Shown one piece after another: positions 4,264 to 38,297 of a stretch of 64,000 bases of DNA. Numbering within the stretch: the first letter of the stretch is position 1; each line of letters begins with the position of its first letter. The position numbers and the translations under genes were made by a program. The DNA lies in assembly GCA_028279345.1 (NCBI GenBank), contig JANQNY010000008.1, forward strand, positions 1 through 64,000. The letters are read 5' to 3'. The notes under the pieces are model-generated. The model did not search any database, was not told the DNA's origin, and saw only the letters and a program-made list of their open reading frames with translations. This stretch comes from Geminicoccaceae bacterium (GTDB lineage: Bacteria; Pseudomonadota; Alphaproteobacteria; Geminicoccales; Geminicoccaceae).

Positions 4264-4968
4264 ATGTCGTCCCCGCCGCAGCTCGTCAGCGCCCGTCTCA
4301 TTCGTCGCTACAAGCGCTTTCTCGCCGACGTCGTTCTCGAGGATGGTCGCGAAGCTACGGCTCACTGCCCGAACCCGGGCCGGATGCTCGGCCTCAACGC
4401 ACCTGGAGCCAAAGTCTGGCTGCGGCCCGCGCCGCCGGGGAGGAAGCTTCCCCTCACGATGGAACTCGTCGAGGCTGAAGGGACCCTGGTCGGCATCAAC
4501 ACCCACGTGCCTAATCGGCTCGTACGTCGCGCCCTCACCGTGGGGCGCGTGCCCGAGCTGGCCGGCTATGATGCGCTGCGCGGCGAGGTCACCTACGGTC
4601 ACGAACGTTCGCGGATCGACTTTCTGCTCGAAGACCCTGTGCGCGGTCGCTGTTGGGTTGAGGTCAAGAACGTGCATTGGCGGGTCGGTGATTTCGCACG
4701 TTTTCCCGATGCGGTGACCAGTCGTGGCGCCAAGCACTTGCGTGAGCTCGCAGCACAAGTCGCAATTGGCGAACGTGCGGCGATGGTCTACGTCGTACAG
4801 CGTAATGACTGCGAGCGGCTCGGGCTCGCCCGTGATATCGATCCAGCTTACGCAGATGCCTGTGCCAGGGCGGCAACCGCAGGTGTCGAGTTCTTGGCCT
4901 ATGCGTGCCGCGTGAGCTTGGAGGGGATCGAGCTGGCTCACCCGATGGATATCGACCTGGAAGCCTAA
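4264..4968 (+). CDS. sfsA: DNA/RNA nuclease SfsA
   Basis: 234 residues, the normal length for SfsA. Family marks are an OB-like N-terminus (RLIRRYKRFLADVVLEDGR), the A-HCPNPGRM motif near residues 35-43, a nuclease-like core with S-RIDFLL and W-VEVKNV (an acidic/E-x-K pattern of PD-(D/E)XK folds) and FPDAVTSRGAKHLREL. SfsA was named for sugar fermentation stimulation in E. coli; nuclease activity is known for the family, the physiological role less so. The stop is 3 bases before map, so the two are almost certainly co-transcribed. Confidence 0.92.
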   Translation: MSSPPQLVSARLIRRYKRFLADVVLEDGREATAHCPNPGRMLGLNAPGAKVWLRPAPPGRKLPLTMELVEAEGTLVGINTHVPNRLVRRALTVGRVPELAGYDALRGEVTYGHERSRIDFLLEDPVRGRCWVEVKNVHWRVGDFARFPDAVTSRGAKHLRELAAQVAIGERAAMVYVVQRNDCERLGLARDIDPAYADACARAATAGVEFLAYACRVSLEGIELAHPMDIDLEA

Positions 4969-4971
4969 CGG

Positions 4972-5781
4972 ATGTACCGCAACAGCTCCGGCCAATCCCG
5001 ATCGCAGGCGGTGCCCCTGCACGGCGCCGCGGCGTTCGATGGCATGCGCCGCGCAGGCCGCCTTGCGGCCGAAATCCTGGACATGATCGAGCCCTACGTG
5101 CGTCCGGGCGTGACGACCGGCGAGCTCGATCGGCTGTGTCACCAGGCCATCAGCAAGGCTGACGCGACACCGGCGCCGCTCGGCTATCGGGGCTACCCGA
5201 AGGCCACCTGCATCTCGCTCAACCACGTGGTCTGCCATGGCATCCCTGGCGACCGGGTGCTCAGGGACGGCGACATTCTCAACATCGACGTCACCGTCGT
5301 TCTCGGCGGTTGGCATGGCGACAGCTCGCGCATGTACTTCGCCGGCAATCCGGCGCTCAAGGCGCGTCGGCTCTGCCGCGTCGCTTTCGAGGCACTATGG
5401 AAGGGCATCGAGCAGGTGCGGCCCGAAGCGACGCTCGGCGACATCGGTGCCGCGATCCAGACCCACGCCGAATCGCATCGGTGCTCGGTCGTCCGGGACT
5501 ATTGCGGGCACGGCATCGGACGGGTGTTCCACGATGCCCCAAGCGTGCTGCACTACGGCAAGCCCGGCGAGGGGCTGACCCTAGAGCCTGGGATGATTTT
5601 CACGATCGAGCCGATGATCAACCTCGGCACCTTCGAAACCAAGCTGCTCGGCGACAGTTGGACCGTGGTCACCAAGGACCGGCAGCTTTCGGCACAGTTC
5701 GAGCATACGGTGGGCGTCACCGAAGAGGGCTGCGAGGTCTTCACGCTGTCACCCGCCGGTCGACATCACCCGACCTGGTGA
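4972..5781 (+). CDS. map: Methionine aminopeptidase, type I
   Basis: 269-residue cytosolic metalloprotease that removes the initiator methionine from nascent proteins. The five metal ligands are visible: D106 (NIDVTV), D117 (WHGDSSRM), H180 (CGHGIG), E213 (IEPM) and E244 (QFEHT). Substrate-side H89 is in V-CHGIPG. There is no zinc-finger N-terminal extension, so it is type Ia. It starts 3 bases after sfsA stops and is followed 6 bases later by radC, forming an sfsA-map-radC unit. The ATG at 4972 gives a slightly longer N-terminus than usual; a GTG at 5011 is possible. Confidence 0.94.
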   Translation: MYRNSSGQSRSQAVPLHGAAAFDGMRRAGRLAAEILDMIEPYVRPGVTTGELDRLCHQAISKADATPAPLGYRGYPKATCISLNHVVCHGIPGDRVLRDGDILNIDVTVVLGGWHGDSSRMYFAGNPALKARRLCRVAFEALWKGIEQVRPEATLGDIGAAIQTHAESHRCSVVRDYCGHGIGRVFHDAPSVLHYGKPGEGLTLEPGMIFTIEPMINLGTFETKLLGDSWTVVTKDRQLSAQFEHTVGVTEEGCEVFTLSPAGRHHPTW

Positions 5782-5787
5782 GACGCC

Positions 5788-6774
5788 ATGGCCGGCTTCT
5801 GGGCCAACCTCCTCGGCGGTCACACGCCGCTTCAACCGGCGGATGAACTCGAAGCCTGCGGCCTCCTGGTACGCGCGACCGATCGGGGTTTCGTCGTCAG
5901 CGGTGAGACCTACCGACATCATCAGGCGTTACGCCGCGCGGGCGGGCACTGGCAGGCCGAGGCCAAGAGCTGGCTCTTCGAGGATGGCGAGGCATTGGCC
6001 ACCGTCGCGGCGCTGATCCGAGCACCCGCGTCCGCCGGCCTCGCCGAGCAGCACGCCCCCTTCGTGGACAAGCCACTCGCGCACGGCACCAAGCACTATC
6101 ACGGGCATCGCGATCGGCTGCGTCAGCGCTTCCTCGAGGTCGGCGGCGAGGCACTCGCCGATTACGAGCTTCTGGAGCTGCTGCTCTTTTTCTCGATCCG
6201 CACGCGAGACACCAAACCGCTCGCCAAGGCGCTGATCACGCGCTTCGGCAGCCTTGCAGCCGTTCTGGCGGTCGAGTCGTCGCGGCTCGCCGAGATCGCC
6301 GAGTTTCGAGACGATCAGGAACGGCGCTTCACATCGGTGCTGCTTCGGCTCGTTCGCGAGATCGACGTTCGCGCGCAACGCGCAGGCCTCAGCGGCGCGC
6401 CTGTCATCGGCTCCCCCGAGGCGCTCGAAGCCTATCTGGCATCGGCCTTCTCTCACGAGGCGGTCGAGGAGTTCCACGCGCTCTTCCTCGACACGCAGAA
6501 CCGTCTGATGCGCGACGAGTGCCTCGGGCGCGGCACCGTCGATCACACGCCCCTTTATCCGCGCGAGATCGCGAAGCGGGCGCTCGAGCTGGGTGCCGTG
6601 GCGCTGATCCTTGTCCACAACCATCCATCCGGCGATCCGACCCCGTCGCCCGAGGACGTAGCGACCACCCGCCGGGTCATCGAGGCTCTCGAACCGCTGA
6701 ATATCCTCGTCTACGACCACGTCATCGTCGGCAAGGGGCGCCAGACGAGCTTCCGCGGCGAAGGGCTGCTGTAG
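5788..6774 (+). CDS. radC: RadC/JAB-domain protein with extra N-terminal module
   Basis: 328 residues, about 100 longer than ordinary RadC. Residues 105-200 hold the helix-hairpin-helix part (YELLELLLFFSIRTRDTKPLAKALI). Residues 207-328 hold the JAB/MPN metalloprotease-like domain with a complete JAMM motif: H277-x-H279, S287, D290. Residues 16-78 are an added module with HHQALRRAGGHWQAEAKSWLF, resembling short K-x-W modules seen in DNA-metabolism proteins; this likeness is impressionistic. The 'radC' name is historical and the molecular function of RadC is not settled. Co-directional with sfsA and map. Confidence 0.88.
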   Translation: MAGFWANLLGGHTPLQPADELEACGLLVRATDRGFVVSGETYRHHQALRRAGGHWQAEAKSWLFEDGEALATVAALIRAPASAGLAEQHAPFVDKPLAHGTKHYHGHRDRLRQRFLEVGGEALADYELLELLLFFSIRTRDTKPLAKALITRFGSLAAVLAVESSRLAEIAEFRDDQERRFTSVLLRLVREIDVRAQRAGLSGAPVIGSPEALEAYLASAFSHEAVEEFHALFLDTQNRLMRDECLGRGTVDHTPLYPREIAKRALELGAVALILVHNHPSGDPTPSPEDVATTRRVIEALEPLNILVYDHVIVGKGRQTSFRGEGLL

Positions 6775-6798
6775 CGGCCGCCATCGATCCTGGAGGCC

Positions 6799-7689
6799 TC
6801 AGCGCCGTGGGATCGTAGCTTGCCAAGGAGTGGGCTCGACGCTGATGAGCCGGCGTCCCAAGCCCACCAGCACCAGCGCCGAGGCGTTCATCGCCAACAC
6901 GTAGAGCACCGCCGGCACCATCAGCTCGGGCACGCCGAGCACGCTGCCGCCCAGGAACAAAGCGAGCGCCACGTTCTGCAGACCACACTCGATGCCGAGG
7001 GTGACCGCGACGCGATCGCCAAGGCGGAGCGCCCGCGCCAGGAAGAGCCCGCCGCACACCGCAAGGGCGTTGAAAGCAACGACCGCCGCGCCCACCGACT
7101 GCCACCCCGCCTCGACGATGGCCCAGTCGCGGACGAAGGCGGCGAGCACGATGGCGATGAACAGGAGGGTCGCGAGCATTCGCGCCGCCGGCAGCAGCTG
7201 CGCCGTCCTCTGCGGAAACCAATGACGGACGATCATCCCCACCGTGAGCGGCAGGAGCGTCACCAGCAGCACCGCGCGCACCGTGGCGATGAGCGAGAGC
7301 CGGTCGGGGAGAATGACCCCTTGCGGGTCGAACAGTGCGACCGCCGCGGCGAGCATGAGCGGCACCGTCACCAGGCCCAAAGCCGTCGTCGCCGCGGTCA
7401 TCACCACCGAGAGTGCTGCATCGCCTCGAGCCAGAACGGTGATGAAGTTCGAGGTGACACCGCCGGGCACGCAGGCCACCAGCACCAGACCGAGCGCCAC
7501 GACAGGCGGTAGGTCGAACACGACGGCGCAAAAGGCCGCGAGTACAGGCAGCCCCAGCGTCTGGACGAGTACGCCTGCGGTCAACGCGCTGAGTCGGCCC
7601 GCCACCGCACGAAAATCCGCGAGCGCGAGGCCCAGGCCCACCGTCACCATGATGCAGGCAAGACCGAGCGGGATGAACCAAGAGGTCAA
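6799..7689 (-). CDS. Bile acid:sodium symporter (BASS) family transporter
   Basis: 296 residues with about nine or ten hydrophobic segments and almost no soluble loops, typical of the BASS fold. The C-V-PGGVTSNFITVLARGDAALS segment in the first half and GIECGLQNVALALFLGG in the second are the paired crossover regions of sodium-coupled BASS carriers. Substrate (bile acid, pantoate, pyruvate or other organic anion) cannot be told. The frame opens with TTG at 7689, which lacks a clear ribosome site; an ATG 13 codons inside would shorten the first membrane segment, so TTG is preferred. It converges with radC and stands alone. Confidence 0.82.
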   Translation of the reverse strand: MTSWFIPLGLACIMVTVGLGLALADFRAVAGRLSALTAGVLVQTLGLPVLAAFCAVVFDLPPVVALGLVLVACVPGGVTSNFITVLARGDAALSVVMTAATTALGLVTVPLMLAAAVALFDPQGVILPDRLSLIATVRAVLLVTLLPLTVGMIVRHWFPQRTAQLLPAARMLATLLFIAIVLAAFVRDWAIVEAGWQSVGAAVVAFNALAVCGGLFLARALRLGDRVAVTLGIECGLQNVALALFLGGSVLGVPELMVPAVLYVLAMNASALVLVGLGRRLISVEPTPWQATIPRR

Positions 7690-7794
7690 GGCGACGGGTC
7701 CGCGCGAAACAGCTTCCAGGGCGAAACAGGCTAGAGCCGCCCGCGACCTCGCGCACGCATCTGGATCAAAGCCGTGTGCGCCAGGGCTTCGACC

Positions 7795-8700
7795 TCAGTC
7801 GGTGACGAGCAGCGCCAGCACAGTCAGCAGAGCTGCCGCGAGCTGGTAGCGGACAGTGTTGGCCAGCAGGCCATTCAACCTCTCGTCGATTGCCGCCTTG
7901 CGAAGCCGGTCCGCCAGCATCCAGGACGGAACCACGAGCGCGAGGCTAGCGACGATGCCAACTCCACCGAAGCCGGTAGCAACCGCCGGTGCCGCCGCCG
8001 CCAGGACGACGAGCACGCCGTAGAGCCGGCACGTCGCTCGGGGCCCCAGGACGATCGCCAGCGTGCGCCGTCCTGCCCGTCGATCGCTGAGGCGATCGCG
8101 ATGATTGTTCAAGAGCAGCACGGCGGCGGCAGGAAGGCCGATCAGCAGGCCTAGGGCGGCAAGCCCCGGGGTGACCGTGCCACCATGGGCCGCCGCCGTG
8201 CCGGCAACTGCGGCGACACCGAAGAAGGCCAACACCAGGACTTCGCCTAGAGGCGTCGCCGCGAGCGGTCGAGGCCCCGAGGAGTAGAGAAGACCGCACG
8301 CGATCCCGGCGACGCCGATGGCGAGCAGCAGCGGCCCGCCGATCGCAACGAGTCCCAGCCCAGCAAGGACGGCCAGCGCGAACCAGGCAAGCGCCGCCAA
8401 TCGCACCCGTCGCGCCGGCAAGAGGCCGGCTGCCGTCGCCCGGATCGGTCCAAGACGGACCCCCGCGTCGACCCCACGCTCGCCGTCGAGGGCATCGTTC
8501 CAGAGATTCGTGCCCGACTGCATGGCAACGGCACCGAGCGCGGCGAGCACGAGAACCCGCGCATCGAACGCACCCGCCTCGGCCCAAGCCCAGGCGGAGC
8601 CGGCGAGCACCGGTGCCAGCGACAGGCTCAGCGTTTTTGGGCGTAGCGCCTGCCACCAGACCTTGAGCCGGTTCGGGGGGGCACCGCTCAGGGCGTCCAT
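7795..8700 (-). CDS. UbiA-superfamily prenyltransferase, MenA-like
   Basis: 301-residue integral membrane prenyltransferase. The first aspartate motif is NLWNDALDGERGVD (N-D-x2-D-x5-D) and the second is NNHRDRLSDRRAGRRTLAIVLG, matching MenA (1,4-dihydroxy-2-naphthoate polyprenyltransferase) better than UbiA. The start region RPKTLSLSLAPVLAGSA is also MenA-like. MenA makes demethylmenaquinone at the inner membrane. No other men or mqn gene is nearby, so a different aromatic acceptor remains possible. ATG 8700 is chosen because homology begins just after it; a longer frame to 8793 adds unrelated residues. Confidence 0.75.
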   Translation of the reverse strand: MDALSGAPPNRLKVWWQALRPKTLSLSLAPVLAGSAWAWAEAGAFDARVLVLAALGAVAMQSGTNLWNDALDGERGVDAGVRLGPIRATAAGLLPARRVRLAALAWFALAVLAGLGLVAIGGPLLLAIGVAGIACGLLYSSGPRPLAATPLGEVLVLAFFGVAAVAGTAAAHGGTVTPGLAALGLLIGLPAAAVLLLNNHRDRLSDRRAGRRTLAIVLGPRATCRLYGVLVVLAAAAPAVATGFGGVGIVASLALVVPSWMLADRLRKAAIDERLNGLLANTVRYQLAAALLTVLALLVTD

Positions 8701-35189: not shown

Positions 35190-35825
35190 CTAGGTGCGGT
35201 CGAGGGTTGCGGCGCCGTAATAATGCCAGAGAAGCACTGCTGCGCAGCCGCGCCACGGCGCCCAAGGCTCGGCCAGCGTGCGGGCTTGTTTGGCCGTCAA
35301 CGGCATCGGCAGCCCCTTCAGGCGCTGCAAGGCCAGCCTTACCGCCAGGTCGTCGGCCGGAAACGTGTCCGCGCGGCCGAGCGCGAACAGCAGGTAGATC
35401 TCCGCACTCCAGCGCCCGAACCCCTTGAGCGCCGTGATCGCCCCGATCGCGTCCTCTTCGGCGGCCGCGCCCAAGGCGGCAAGATCGAGACGCCCCGAGA
35501 TGACCGCGTCTGCCAGCCCATGGGCGTAGGCGATCTTCTGCCGGCTCAACCCGCAGCTGCGGAGCTCTTCCGCCGAGCTGCCGGCTACGGTCGCGGGGCT
35601 GATGTCGCCCAGCCGCTCCGCGAGCCGCTTCCAGATAGCCGCCGCGGCGTGGGTCGAGACCTGCTGCGCCGTTACGATCTGCAGCAGTGTTGCGAAGCCG
35701 GGCTCGCGCACACGGGCCGTGGGCGGACCGATTTCGGCGAGTGCACGCGCGATGTCCGCATCGGCCTGCGCCAGGACTCGGAGCCCCTGCTCGAGGCGGT
35801 CTTGATGGAGCGGTGTGGTGCGCAT
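35190..35825 (-). CDS. DNA-3-methyladenine glycosylase, AlkA-type HhH
   Basis: 211 residues of the HhH-GPD DNA glycosylase superfamily. Core segments are LLQIVTAQQVSTHAAAAIWKRL, L-SRQKIAYAHGLADAV, A-LKGFGRWSAEIYLLFALGRADTFPADDLA. The last carries the helix-hairpin-helix (L-x-G-F/I-G) and the catalytic Asp in P-ADDLAV. It should remove alkylated bases in base excision repair. ATG 35825 begins the conserved part; an upstream frame start at 35900 adds unrelated residues and abuts the photolyase stop. It lies directly downstream of the photolyase gene, so two DNA repair enzymes are adjacent. Confidence 0.85.
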   Translation of the reverse strand: MRTTPLHQDRLEQGLRVLAQADADIARALAEIGPPTARVREPGFATLLQIVTAQQVSTHAAAAIWKRLAERLGDISPATVAGSSAEELRSCGLSRQKIAYAHGLADAVISGRLDLAALGAAAEEDAIGAITALKGFGRWSAEIYLLFALGRADTFPADDLAVRLALQRLKGLPMPLTAKQARTLAEPWAPWRGCAAVLLWHYYGAATLDRT

Positions 35826-35900
35826 GCGGGCTTCGGTCCGATCGGGGGGCTTCACGCTTCTTCGTTCACGGCCCACCTTGCGTCGAGAGCCTCTAGCCAC

Positions 35901-38297
35901 TCAGGTTGCCACGTGGTCGGTGCCACGATCCAGATCGACGCTGAGGTTCAAGAGCCGCCCTGCCGCCGCGGCACCGGATAGGAACGCGGCTTCGATCCGA
36001 CCGCCCAGGCACCAGTCCCCACAAGCCGCGACGCCCGTTTCGGCGTCGAACAGGCACGGCTCGCCGAGCGGGGCGTCGGCCAAGGCGTAGCGCCAGCGGT
36101 GCGCCGCCGCGTAGGTCGTTTCCGGCAGGGGCCCAGCGAGCGTCCCCAACGCCGATCGCAGATCCTCCAGGACCTCGTCCACGTCACGCTCCAGATTGGC
36201 TCGAGACCAAGGGTGGCTCGCGTGCACGACCCAAGTCTCGCCGGACGGGCGCTGGGGCTTGGCCGCGTCGCGGGTAATCCACGCGAGTGGCCCCTGCCCG
36301 GGTCGCACCACATCGGGAAGGTCGAGCGGTGCCTTGAACGCGAACAGTCCCGCCCAGCAGGGCGCCATGCCAGCCTCACCTGCGCGCCCGGCGAGCGCGG
36401 GAAGCGGCTCCAGAAGCGCTGCCGCTTGTGGTGCCGGCACAGCAACGACGACGCACCGGAACGGACCGCGATCCTCCAGTCCGTCACCCACGAGGCGCCA
36501 CCCACGCGAATCGGGCAGCAGCCGGCGGATGGTGGTTTCATTGACGACTTCGAGGTCCGCCGCGAGATGCCGGCCGAGCGCGCTCATGCCCGGGACCGGT
36601 ACCTGCCAGGGCGCGGCGTCCCCAGGAACGGCCCCATCCGCCGGTGTCCAAGCGGCGACGAGCCCTTGTTCGGTCCAGGCCTGCACATAGCGTTGGAAAC
36701 GGAGATCGCGAGTCGTGAAGTACTGCGCGCCATGGTCGAACGCGACATCACCGACGCGCCGCGTAGCTATGCGACCGCCGACGCCGCGCGACTTGTCGAA
36801 CACCGTCACGGCGAGGCCGTGGTCACGGAGCGTGCGGGCGCAGACGAGGCCGGCCATCCCGGCCCCGATCACCGCCACCTTGGGCGGCCGGCGCAGATTG
36901 GCGCGTGTCACCCTCGCCCTGTAGGCATCGACATCGAGCCGCTTCGCGTGCCCCACAGTCGACCGCGCGCGCAGCGTACCGGTGACCGGAGACGGCGGCT
37001 CGAAAGGGCGGTCGAAGAGGCCGAGACACCAAAAGAGACCGCCATAGGAGTTCGGGTCCCGGCCATCGAGCGCGAAGCGGTGGTTGAGATCGACCAAGAG
37101 GCGCATGGCCGCCTCGGGCGTGGCCGTCCAGGGCGGGAGCGCCTTGCCCCAGGTCATCCGCAGATTGTTGTGCAGCTCGCCGTGCACCATGAGCGAGGTC
37201 TGGGCGGCGTCCCACAGAGCGTCACCGGTGCGCCCGCGCGCCAGCGTTTCCCAGTCATAGGTCCGGTCTCGCGTATCGTCGCGGTGCGCTTCCAACGTCG
37301 CCTGGGCCCACCTGGGCAGTGCTTCGAGCGTTTCGATCTCTTCGGTGTGGAAACACCAGGCATGGGCGAGCTCGCGCCAAACCAGGAGCTCGTCGAGGAA
37401 CTTCGCGGCACCCGGCCCGCCGACGGCCATAGCCTCGCGCGCGATGGCGAACGGCGAGACGTGCCCGAAATGCAGATAGGGCGAAAGGCGGCTCACCCCG
37501 TCGCGATCGAGGGCATCGTTGCGGCGCCGGGCGTAGGCGTGCAGGCGCTCGTCACGGAAACGTGCCCAGCGTGCGTAGCCTGCGCGACTGCCGCCCGGCG
37601 TGTCCGCGACCGGGCCCACCATGTGGTCGATGTCGCAGGCGGCGACGAGCGCGCCGAGGTCGGCCCCCGCGAGGTCGACTGGCTCGAACGGCAGCTGACG
37701 TGGCAGCGCGCTTAGTATCCGCCCAGCGAAGGGCGGCCACGGCAACGCCAGCCGTTCGAGCCTCGCCGCCTGCGTCTCCTGGCGAAAGCGGAAGGCGCGC
37801 TCAGGGCGTCGCTTGACCAGCCGCATCGGGAAGACGCAGGCGGTATCCACCGCCAGCAGCGGCGCCGGCGACGATCGGGCGAGGCTTTGCGTCGCCCGCC
37901 GACTTGGCGGCGTAGGACAATCCTCACAGACGATCGCCGCGGCTGCCTCGGCGAGTTGCTCGATCACCGGTCGGTCGCCCGAATGCTCCAGATGAAAAGC
38001 GTAGGCGATGCGCTGCTCCGAGAGCTCCGCGGCGACGTCGCGCGCGCCCTCCAGAATGAAGCGGTGGATGCGGTCAGAGGCGAAGGGATAGCGCGGGCTC
38101 AGACCATGGTAGACGAAGAGCGGCCGTTCCAACGCGTCGGCTAGGTGCAGCGCCGCATCGAGCGCCGGGTTGTCGTGGCCACGGGCGGCGTTGCGCATCC
38201 AGTAGAGGACACAGGCGCCATCGGCCCGTGCGTCGGGCCCTCGCGCCCGCGTCCGCTCGATCAGGTGGTCGGGAAGGTGCCGGAGGATGGGATGCAT
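35901..38297 (-). CDS. Class II-like photolyase fused to renalase-like flavin oxidoreductase
   Basis: 798 residues, far longer than a photolyase (about 450-480). Residues 28-435 are a photolyase: antenna-domain V-LYWMRNAARGHDN, FAD-site SRLSPYLHFGHVSP (269-282), ELLVWRELAH (303-312) and E-LHNNLRMTWGKALPPW (374-390), with LNHRFALDGRDPNSYGG after it, all of class II style. Residues 474-790 are a separate flavoprotein: Rossmann VIGAGMAGLVCA (476-487), K-SRGVGGRIATRR, F-DHGAQYFT and a late V-AACGDWCLGGRIEAAFLSG. This half matches NAD(P)/FAD amine-oxidase-like renalase proteins. The fused part may donate electrons or recycle flavin; that is inference. No frameshift joins them. Confidence 0.88.
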   Translation of the reverse strand: MHPILRHLPDHLIERTRARGPDARADGACVLYWMRNAARGHDNPALDAALHLADALERPLFVYHGLSPRYPFASDRIHRFILEGARDVAAELSEQRIAYAFHLEHSGDRPVIEQLAEAAAAIVCEDCPTPPSRRATQSLARSSPAPLLAVDTACVFPMRLVKRRPERAFRFRQETQAARLERLALPWPPFAGRILSALPRQLPFEPVDLAGADLGALVAACDIDHMVGPVADTPGGSRAGYARWARFRDERLHAYARRRNDALDRDGVSRLSPYLHFGHVSPFAIAREAMAVGGPGAAKFLDELLVWRELAHAWCFHTEEIETLEALPRWAQATLEAHRDDTRDRTYDWETLARGRTGDALWDAAQTSLMVHGELHNNLRMTWGKALPPWTATPEAAMRLLVDLNHRFALDGRDPNSYGGLFWCLGLFDRPFEPPSPVTGTLRARSTVGHAKRLDVDAYRARVTRANLRRPPKVAVIGAGMAGLVCARTLRDHGLAVTVFDKSRGVGGRIATRRVGDVAFDHGAQYFTTRDLRFQRYVQAWTEQGLVAAWTPADGAVPGDAAPWQVPVPGMSALGRHLAADLEVVNETTIRRLLPDSRGWRLVGDGLEDRGPFRCVVVAVPAPQAAALLEPLPALAGRAGEAGMAPCWAGLFAFKAPLDLPDVVRPGQGPLAWITRDAAKPQRPSGETWVVHASHPWSRANLERDVDEVLEDLRSALGTLAGPLPETTYAAAHRWRYALADAPLGEPCLFDAETGVAACGDWCLGGRIEAAFLSGAAAAGRLLNLSVDLDRGTDHVAT

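Follow-up and report, generated by a model that had tools for sequence, protein, structure and literature searches.

Why would a bacterium carry a DNA photolyase and a renalase in one polypeptide, and is the joined protein real? The question is raised by a single gene in the window, a 64,000-nucleotide stretch of contig JANQNY010000008.1 from a Geminicoccaceae bacterium. To our knowledge, little is known of the role of renalase in bacteria. For photolyases, the excerpted text of PMC3204975 describes the cellular need for photoreduction of the FAD as still debated. A natural fusion of the two enzymes, found as one clade in six phyla, lets both matters be examined on one polypeptide. We found no description of a photolyase-renalase fusion in the portions of the open-licence PMC literature available, and a description elsewhere is possible; the two-part flavin protein is apparently undescribed. 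The novelty lies in the domain architecture and in a subfamily within an enzyme class that is already known; it does not amount to a new class of system.

One frame encodes a photolyase and a renalase

The fusion gene (35901–38297, minus strand) runs from an ATG at 38297 to a TGA at 35901 and encodes 798 residues with no internal stop. A sequence-only reading of the window had placed an uninterrupted 798-residue frame at these positions, and we found its coordinates to be exact and the two halves to be joined without a stop; the minus strand is now added. On the sequence alone, an internal translation start may exist within the frame. All parts of the gene lie on the minus strand. The class II-type CPD photolyase domain spans residues 8–463 (36909–38276) and was assigned by sequence match and by a predicted fold with Z 46. 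It is followed by a short linker of residues 464–471 (36885–36908), whose spacing is identical in 57 of 75 fusions, and by the renalase domain, residues 472–789 (35931–36884), assigned by sequence and by a predicted fold with Z 44 and rmsd 1.4. Within the renalase half we found the GxGxxG dinucleotide-binding motif at residues 478–483 (36849–36866), the DHGAQYFT motif at 521–528 (36714–36737), and a CGDW motif near the C terminus at 759–762 (36012–36023). The first two had already been noticed in the sequence-only reading, and its naming of the halves as a class II-like photolyase and a renalase-like flavoprotein was right, as judged by profiles, solved homologues and predicted fold.

The photolyase half is class II-type, with core sites kept and auxiliary donors largely lost

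The NCBIfam class II model phr2 (TIGR00591) matches residues 26–462 with 303 bits (E 4.8e-90), yet this is below its curated cut-off of 550. In profile searches PF00875 exceeded its cut-off while PF03441 fell slightly short (25.5 vs 27). Solved class II photolyases matched the N half with E values of 3e-56 to 2e-52, and its predicted fold gave Z 45–46 against class II structures (Z 46 over 448 residues) compared with about 30–32 against class I. The window protein matches 53/53 shared photolyase columns. In an unrooted tree the stand-alone class II proteins form its sister clade, and we therefore file the N half as class II-type but as a separate subfamily.

We compared eleven core photolyase sites, given in M. 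mazei numbering: Trp360, Trp381, Trp388, Glu301, Trp305, Asn403, Asp409, Trp421, Asp428, Arg256 and Arg441. Among these, Glu301, Trp305, Trp421, Asn403, Asp409 and Arg256 count as core by their roles in class II enzymes. In the alignment all eleven are unchanged in 71/75 fusions, and the four exceptions carry W388M (L057 and L089), W360Y (L088) or W305F (L185). Of the class II tryptophan triad, Trp360 is found in 74, Trp381 in 75 and Trp388 in 73 of the 75 fusions. The triad and its order, Trp381-Trp360-Trp388, are taken from the excerpted text of PMC5885780, and by alignment the window equivalents are W383 (37149–37151) for the FAD-proximal Trp381, W362 (37212–37214) for Trp360, and the distal W390 (37128–37130) for Trp388.

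The same excerpt names Tyr345 as a further electron donor in the class II enzyme. Its equivalent is retained in only 19/75 fusions, the window protein among them, that of Tyr380 is retained in none of the 75, and Glu387 is replaced. Since Tyr345 is a reported donor and is mostly lost, the electron supply route has been altered in the fusion clade with the main chain kept. Specific to the clade, Asn replaces Tyr376, Ala replaces Lys384, and Arg replaces both Met443 and Lys451; R445, R453 and A386 are new fixed residues.

The bubble-intruding region, as its residues are defined in the available part of PMC6126647, aligns with residues 429–443 of the window protein (36969–37013; D429, R430, F432 and R443). 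D429 corresponds to Asp428 and R443 to Arg441, and the Arg441 equivalent is present in 75/75 fusions. According to the same partial source, Phe or His can stand for Trp431; this position holds Phe in 66/75 and His in 6/75 fusions. The fusion defines a photolyase subfamily with DNA-contact changes of its own.

The renalase half retains the conserved columns of free renalases

Pseudomonas renalase (3kkj/4zcc) matched residues 474–784 of the fusion with an E value of 3e-65, and in the predicted fold 316 residues of the C half superimposed on renalase (Z 44, rmsd 1.4 Å). Both the GxGxxG and the GGR of the renalase FAD-binding motif are kept. The window protein retains 44/44 columns conserved among 52 stand-alone renalases. 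Across the fusions 35 of these 44 columns are also at least 90% conserved, and the median number kept is 42/44 in fusions and 43/44 in stand-alone proteins. Lack of flavin binding in the C half was an outcome that the sequence-only reading had named as telling against it; with all 44 columns kept, the C half would be expected to bind flavin. The narrow substrate choice of renalases reportedly goes back to a primary paper by Hoag and others, which PMC7660482 cites. In the excerpted text of PMC10297141, characterised renalases oxidise rare dihydro-NAD(P) isomers.

The two halves are predicted to dock in a fixed arrangement

AlphaFold modelled the full-length window protein with a mean pLDDT of 94.0 and a pTM of 0.94. 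The fusion L088, the most distant row of the alignment at 41% identity to the window protein, gave 91.8 and 0.93. A pTM this high for two large domains means that their relative placement is confidently predicted, so both models point to a confident docking of the photolyase and renalase halves.

The fusion is widespread yet sparse

A total of 98 ORFs carried both halves; 89 were full length, and these gave 75 distinct fusions. In the scan of named genomes we considered the best 80 loci of a larger set, of which the first 57 (L034–L090) are fused, some of them cut by contig ends or broken in frame. Among these best 80 loci, full-length fusions span Planctomycetota, Myxococcota, Pseudomonadota, Thermodesulfobacteriota, Gemmatimonadota and Sumerlaeota, and an Acidobacteria contig ends in a fusion fragment (L056). 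We left out of the fusion set L080 and L087, whose frame is broken on the contig, and fragments such as L195 and L197. Two fusions truncated at contig ends, L091 and L106, were counted as stand-alone in the first renalase tree and were removed for the column, state-change and AU analyses. Two long renalase ORFs, one in G588 (798 residues) and one in G563 (811), were rejected as fusions; neither gave a photolyase match in BLAST, and outside the renalase they resemble read-through upstream sequence.

The fusion was present in 5/60 nearest relatives and 4/385 genomes of the same class, in 10/294 genomes of the Planctomycetota group, and in 20/193 of the Myxococcota group, where some copies are incomplete at contig ends. 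Its distribution is therefore widespread yet sparse. Many fusion records are metagenome-assembled, which could favour an assembly or annotation artefact. However, the frame is single and free of stops, 75 distinct sequences share the junction, and these include several isolates and complete chromosomes; chromosome-level records from isolates are CP036526, CP043547 and CP036432. Since bacteria of many unrelated groups carry this gene in joined form, the fusion is real, and we put the chance of an artefact close to nil.

The sequence-only reading had proposed a survey of fused against separate genes, and had held that separate, unlinked halves in all relatives would speak against it. Fused relatives occur in six phyla and among the nearest relatives too, so this part of the idea stood; four of the 60 nearest relatives (G008, G012, G025 and G045), on the other side, encode the photolyase and the renalase in separate genes that are not linked.

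Of the fusion-bearing genomes, 14/18 also encode an ordinary class II photolyase, which indicates that the fusion does more than fill the place of a housekeeping photolyase. The window genome has two other photolyase-family genes on other contigs, both below curated cut-offs: L001 comes closest to the cryptochrome and class I-like models; L002 is a more distant family member. No stand-alone renalase reached threshold in this genome (G000), which gave one further weak match only. Stand-alone renalases were found in 2/20 fusion-bearing and 33/173 other genomes of the Myxococcota group, and in 1/10 and 30/284, respectively, of the Planctomycetota group; mutual exclusion of the fusion and a stand-alone renalase was rejected (pooled Fisher p 0.78).

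The simplest history is one ancient fusion

In an unrooted tree a fully supported branch (SH-aLRT 100) sets the photolyase halves of the 75 fusions, as one clade, apart from 43 stand-alone class II proteins, a number of them taken from fusion-bearing genomes. A fusion-clade photolyase lacking renalase was found neither among these 43 proteins in the tree nor among five borderline matches compared by BLAST; the latter (L228–L232) were rejected as clade members, being closer to stand-alone class II proteins than to the window half. The renalase halves, by contrast with the photolyase halves, are not monophyletic. Placing all fused renalases in one clade is rejected (AU test, p 0.0019, lnL difference 229), and the renalase tree needs 15 changes between the fused and free states, at least 3 of them on well-supported branches.

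The constant junction, the single photolyase clade and the scattered renalases are most simply read as a single ancient fusion event, after which the photolyase half was lost several times and free renalases would have been left behind. Repeated replacement of the renalase half within fusions may also have occurred. Because free renalases lie inside the tree of fused ones, the renalase half is useful without photolyase.

Two divergent fusions come from small genomes of the window's class: L008 (1498–3837, minus strand) and L115 (1486–3804, minus strand). The coverage filter kept them out of the 75, and we analysed them separately; their branches are long and their placement is unsure. We considered them as an independent second fusion and rejected this, as their N halves are closer to the fused clade than to stand-alone proteins and group with the fused rows. 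L008 and L115 keep 3 and 5, respectively, of the 11 core photolyase sites, and 32 and 34 of the 44 renalase columns. It is possible that they are former photolyases with a new role, and they suggest that a renalase half can persist after DNA repair has been lost.

Neighbouring genes link the fusion to DNA repair and photolyases

An AlkA-like HhH-GPD DNA glycosylase, assigned by family match, lies directly downstream of the fusion on the same strand (35190–35900). Its first start is a GTG at 35900, right after the fusion stop codon, and its first ATG is at 35825. In a genome of the same genus (G001, locus L006) a glycosylase homologue, 61% identical, likewise follows the fusion. The fusion and the glycosylase are probably in the same operon, and the shared order hints at a DNA-repair operon. 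The gene beyond the glycosylase is presumably gyrA, which it resembles by translation; upstream of the fusion is a divergent ETF-ubiquinone oxidoreductase gene.

Another photolyase-family gene adjoins the fusion in 6/57 named loci (L034, L044, L055, L040, L061 and L075), where about 0.25–0.4 such neighbours would be expected on a rough estimate that assumes gene numbers per genome. These neighbours carry PF00875 and PF03441 in L034, L044 and L055, and DPRP in L040 and L061. The neighbours at L034 (8891–10345), L044 (3773–5359) and L055 (3817–5337) are akin to the L002 protein of the window genome, with 41–53% identity. At L075 a stand-alone class II photolyase gene (4503–5987) is followed, with a slight overlap, by the fusion (5983–8316).

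The neighbour scans covered 85 ORFs chosen beside fusions and 41 beside stand-alone renalases. Beside fusions, 3/85 had Fpg-type glycosylase domains and 2/85 were squalene/phytoene synthases; the 41 beside stand-alone renalases included two with DPRP, two with FAD_binding_7, one with BLUF and one GTP cyclohydrolase I. Photolyase-family neighbours of stand-alone renalases indicate that a link between renalase and photolyase exists beyond the fusion.

Seventy plasmid records had a match and seven regions were inspected. In four of these, from Sphingobium, Rhizobium, Burkholderia and Asticcacaulis (L218, L219, L220 and L222), a stand-alone renalase sits next to folE, DUF3429, SDR, DUF2256, UbiB-like, MerR, CFA synthase or photolyase genes. 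In the other three (L221, L223 and L224) neither a photolyase nor a folE gene was found near the renalase.

What the fusion may do

The architecture, fold, intact active-site residues, recurrence and genomic context of the fusion are established. They support a picture of two complete enzymes held together and probably used in the same circumstances. The reading that we prefer, and to which we give about an even chance, is that the fusion is an ancient, rigidly docked, bifunctional light-stress flavoprotein that combines CPD photorepair with renalase-type oxidation of NAD(P)H isomers. Like other class II photolyases, the N half would bind FAD and split cyclobutane pyrimidine dimers with blue or near-UV light. 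A second FAD would sit in the C half, which like bacterial renalase would most likely oxidise misreduced NAD(P)H isomers, 2- and 6-dihydro-NAD(P), yielding NAD(P)+ and handing the electrons to O2. DNA repair and redox-cofactor repair would be produced together because illumination calls for both. We infer both activities, their substrates and this joint deployment under light as the reason for the fusion; the neighbouring photolyase genes that speak for light stress are confined to a minority of loci, the 6/57 above. If the two activities were independent, some fusion-clade photolyases without renalase would be expected, and that none was seen counts against the bifunctional reading. A photolyase clade that was never found free, beside a renalase that often is, suggests a one-sided dependence, of the photolyase half on the renalase half. 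Structural dependence and electron supply would each lead one to expect this.

Electron supply, the idea raised in the sequence-only reading, would make the fusion a self-reducing photolyase: the renalase flavin would take hydride from a nicotinamide donor and hand electrons on to the FAD of the photolyase, either straight or via the tryptophan chain, giving FADH- without an outside reductant. We consider this unlikely, though the likeliest of the alternatives. It would fit a clade never found without renalase beside the 43 stand-alone class II proteins of the tree, the linker spacing constant in 57/75, the fixed docking that pTM values of 0.94 and 0.93 imply, and the loss of auxiliary donors (Tyr345 kept in 19/75, Tyr380 in 0/75, Glu387 replaced) with the new R445, R453 and A386. 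However, with the tryptophan triad intact in nearly all fusions (74, 75 and 73 of 75) ordinary photoreduction is still possible, ordinary class II enzymes function without a partner, and renalase occurs alone elsewhere; moreover L008 and L115 lost most photolyase-site residues and kept most renalase ones, and the renalases characterised in the PMC10297141 excerpt use rare dihydro-NAD(P) isomers. The narrower proposal, that renalase docks at the tryptophan chain and by this contact keeps the photolyase FAD as repair-competent FADH-, is a little more doubtful still. If true, such a contact would explain both why the clade was never found without renalase and why the auxiliary tyrosine donors were lost.

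Structural dependence would mean tethering without catalytic exchange, where one half stabilises or positions the other and the fusion persists for that reason. The predicted docking, the constant linker and the clade-specific substitutions near the photolyase C terminus are consistent with this, but a pure scaffold needs no catalytic columns, and those of renalase are conserved about equally in fused and free proteins (median 42/44 vs 43/44). We judge it rather improbable. It is more improbable again that the photolyase half serves as a photoreceptor, or has another use outside repair, with renalase as the output module. The divergent pair L008 and L115, with 3 and 5 of 11 photolyase sites against 32 and 34 of 44 renalase columns, would suit such a role, as would the other photolyase owned by many bearers (14/18); in the main clade, however, 71/75 fusions retain all core sites for repair, and the residues that intrude into the DNA bubble are conserved as well.

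Comparison with known systems

With class II CPD photolyases, represented by M. mazei MmCPDII and by 3umv (listed as a plant class II enzyme, which we take to be that of rice), the bifunctional candidate shares the fold, the FAD site, the triad and Asp428/Arg429/Arg441. It differs in forming a separate clade, in the replacement of Trp431, Tyr376, Met443 and Lys451, in the loss of Tyr345 and Tyr380 from most members, and in its C-terminal renalase. With the bacterial renalases of Pseudomonas (3kkj/4zcc/4zcd/5krq) it shares the 44 conserved columns and about 40% identity, with Z 43–44 and rmsd 1.4–1.6 Å; unlike them, the window version is the C half of a photolyase.

A parallel in gene content is a light-inducible photolyase gene set under LitR/PplR in Pseudomonas, described in the excerpted text of PMC9758184, where PME6625 is an FAD-dependent oxidoreductase. 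The Burkholderia plasmid cluster L220, in which renalase accompanies a MerR regulator, CFA synthase, GTP cyclohydrolase I and a photolyase, resembles this set. In the Pseudomonas LitR/PplR clusters the genes are separate, whereas in the window photolyase and renalase are one protein.
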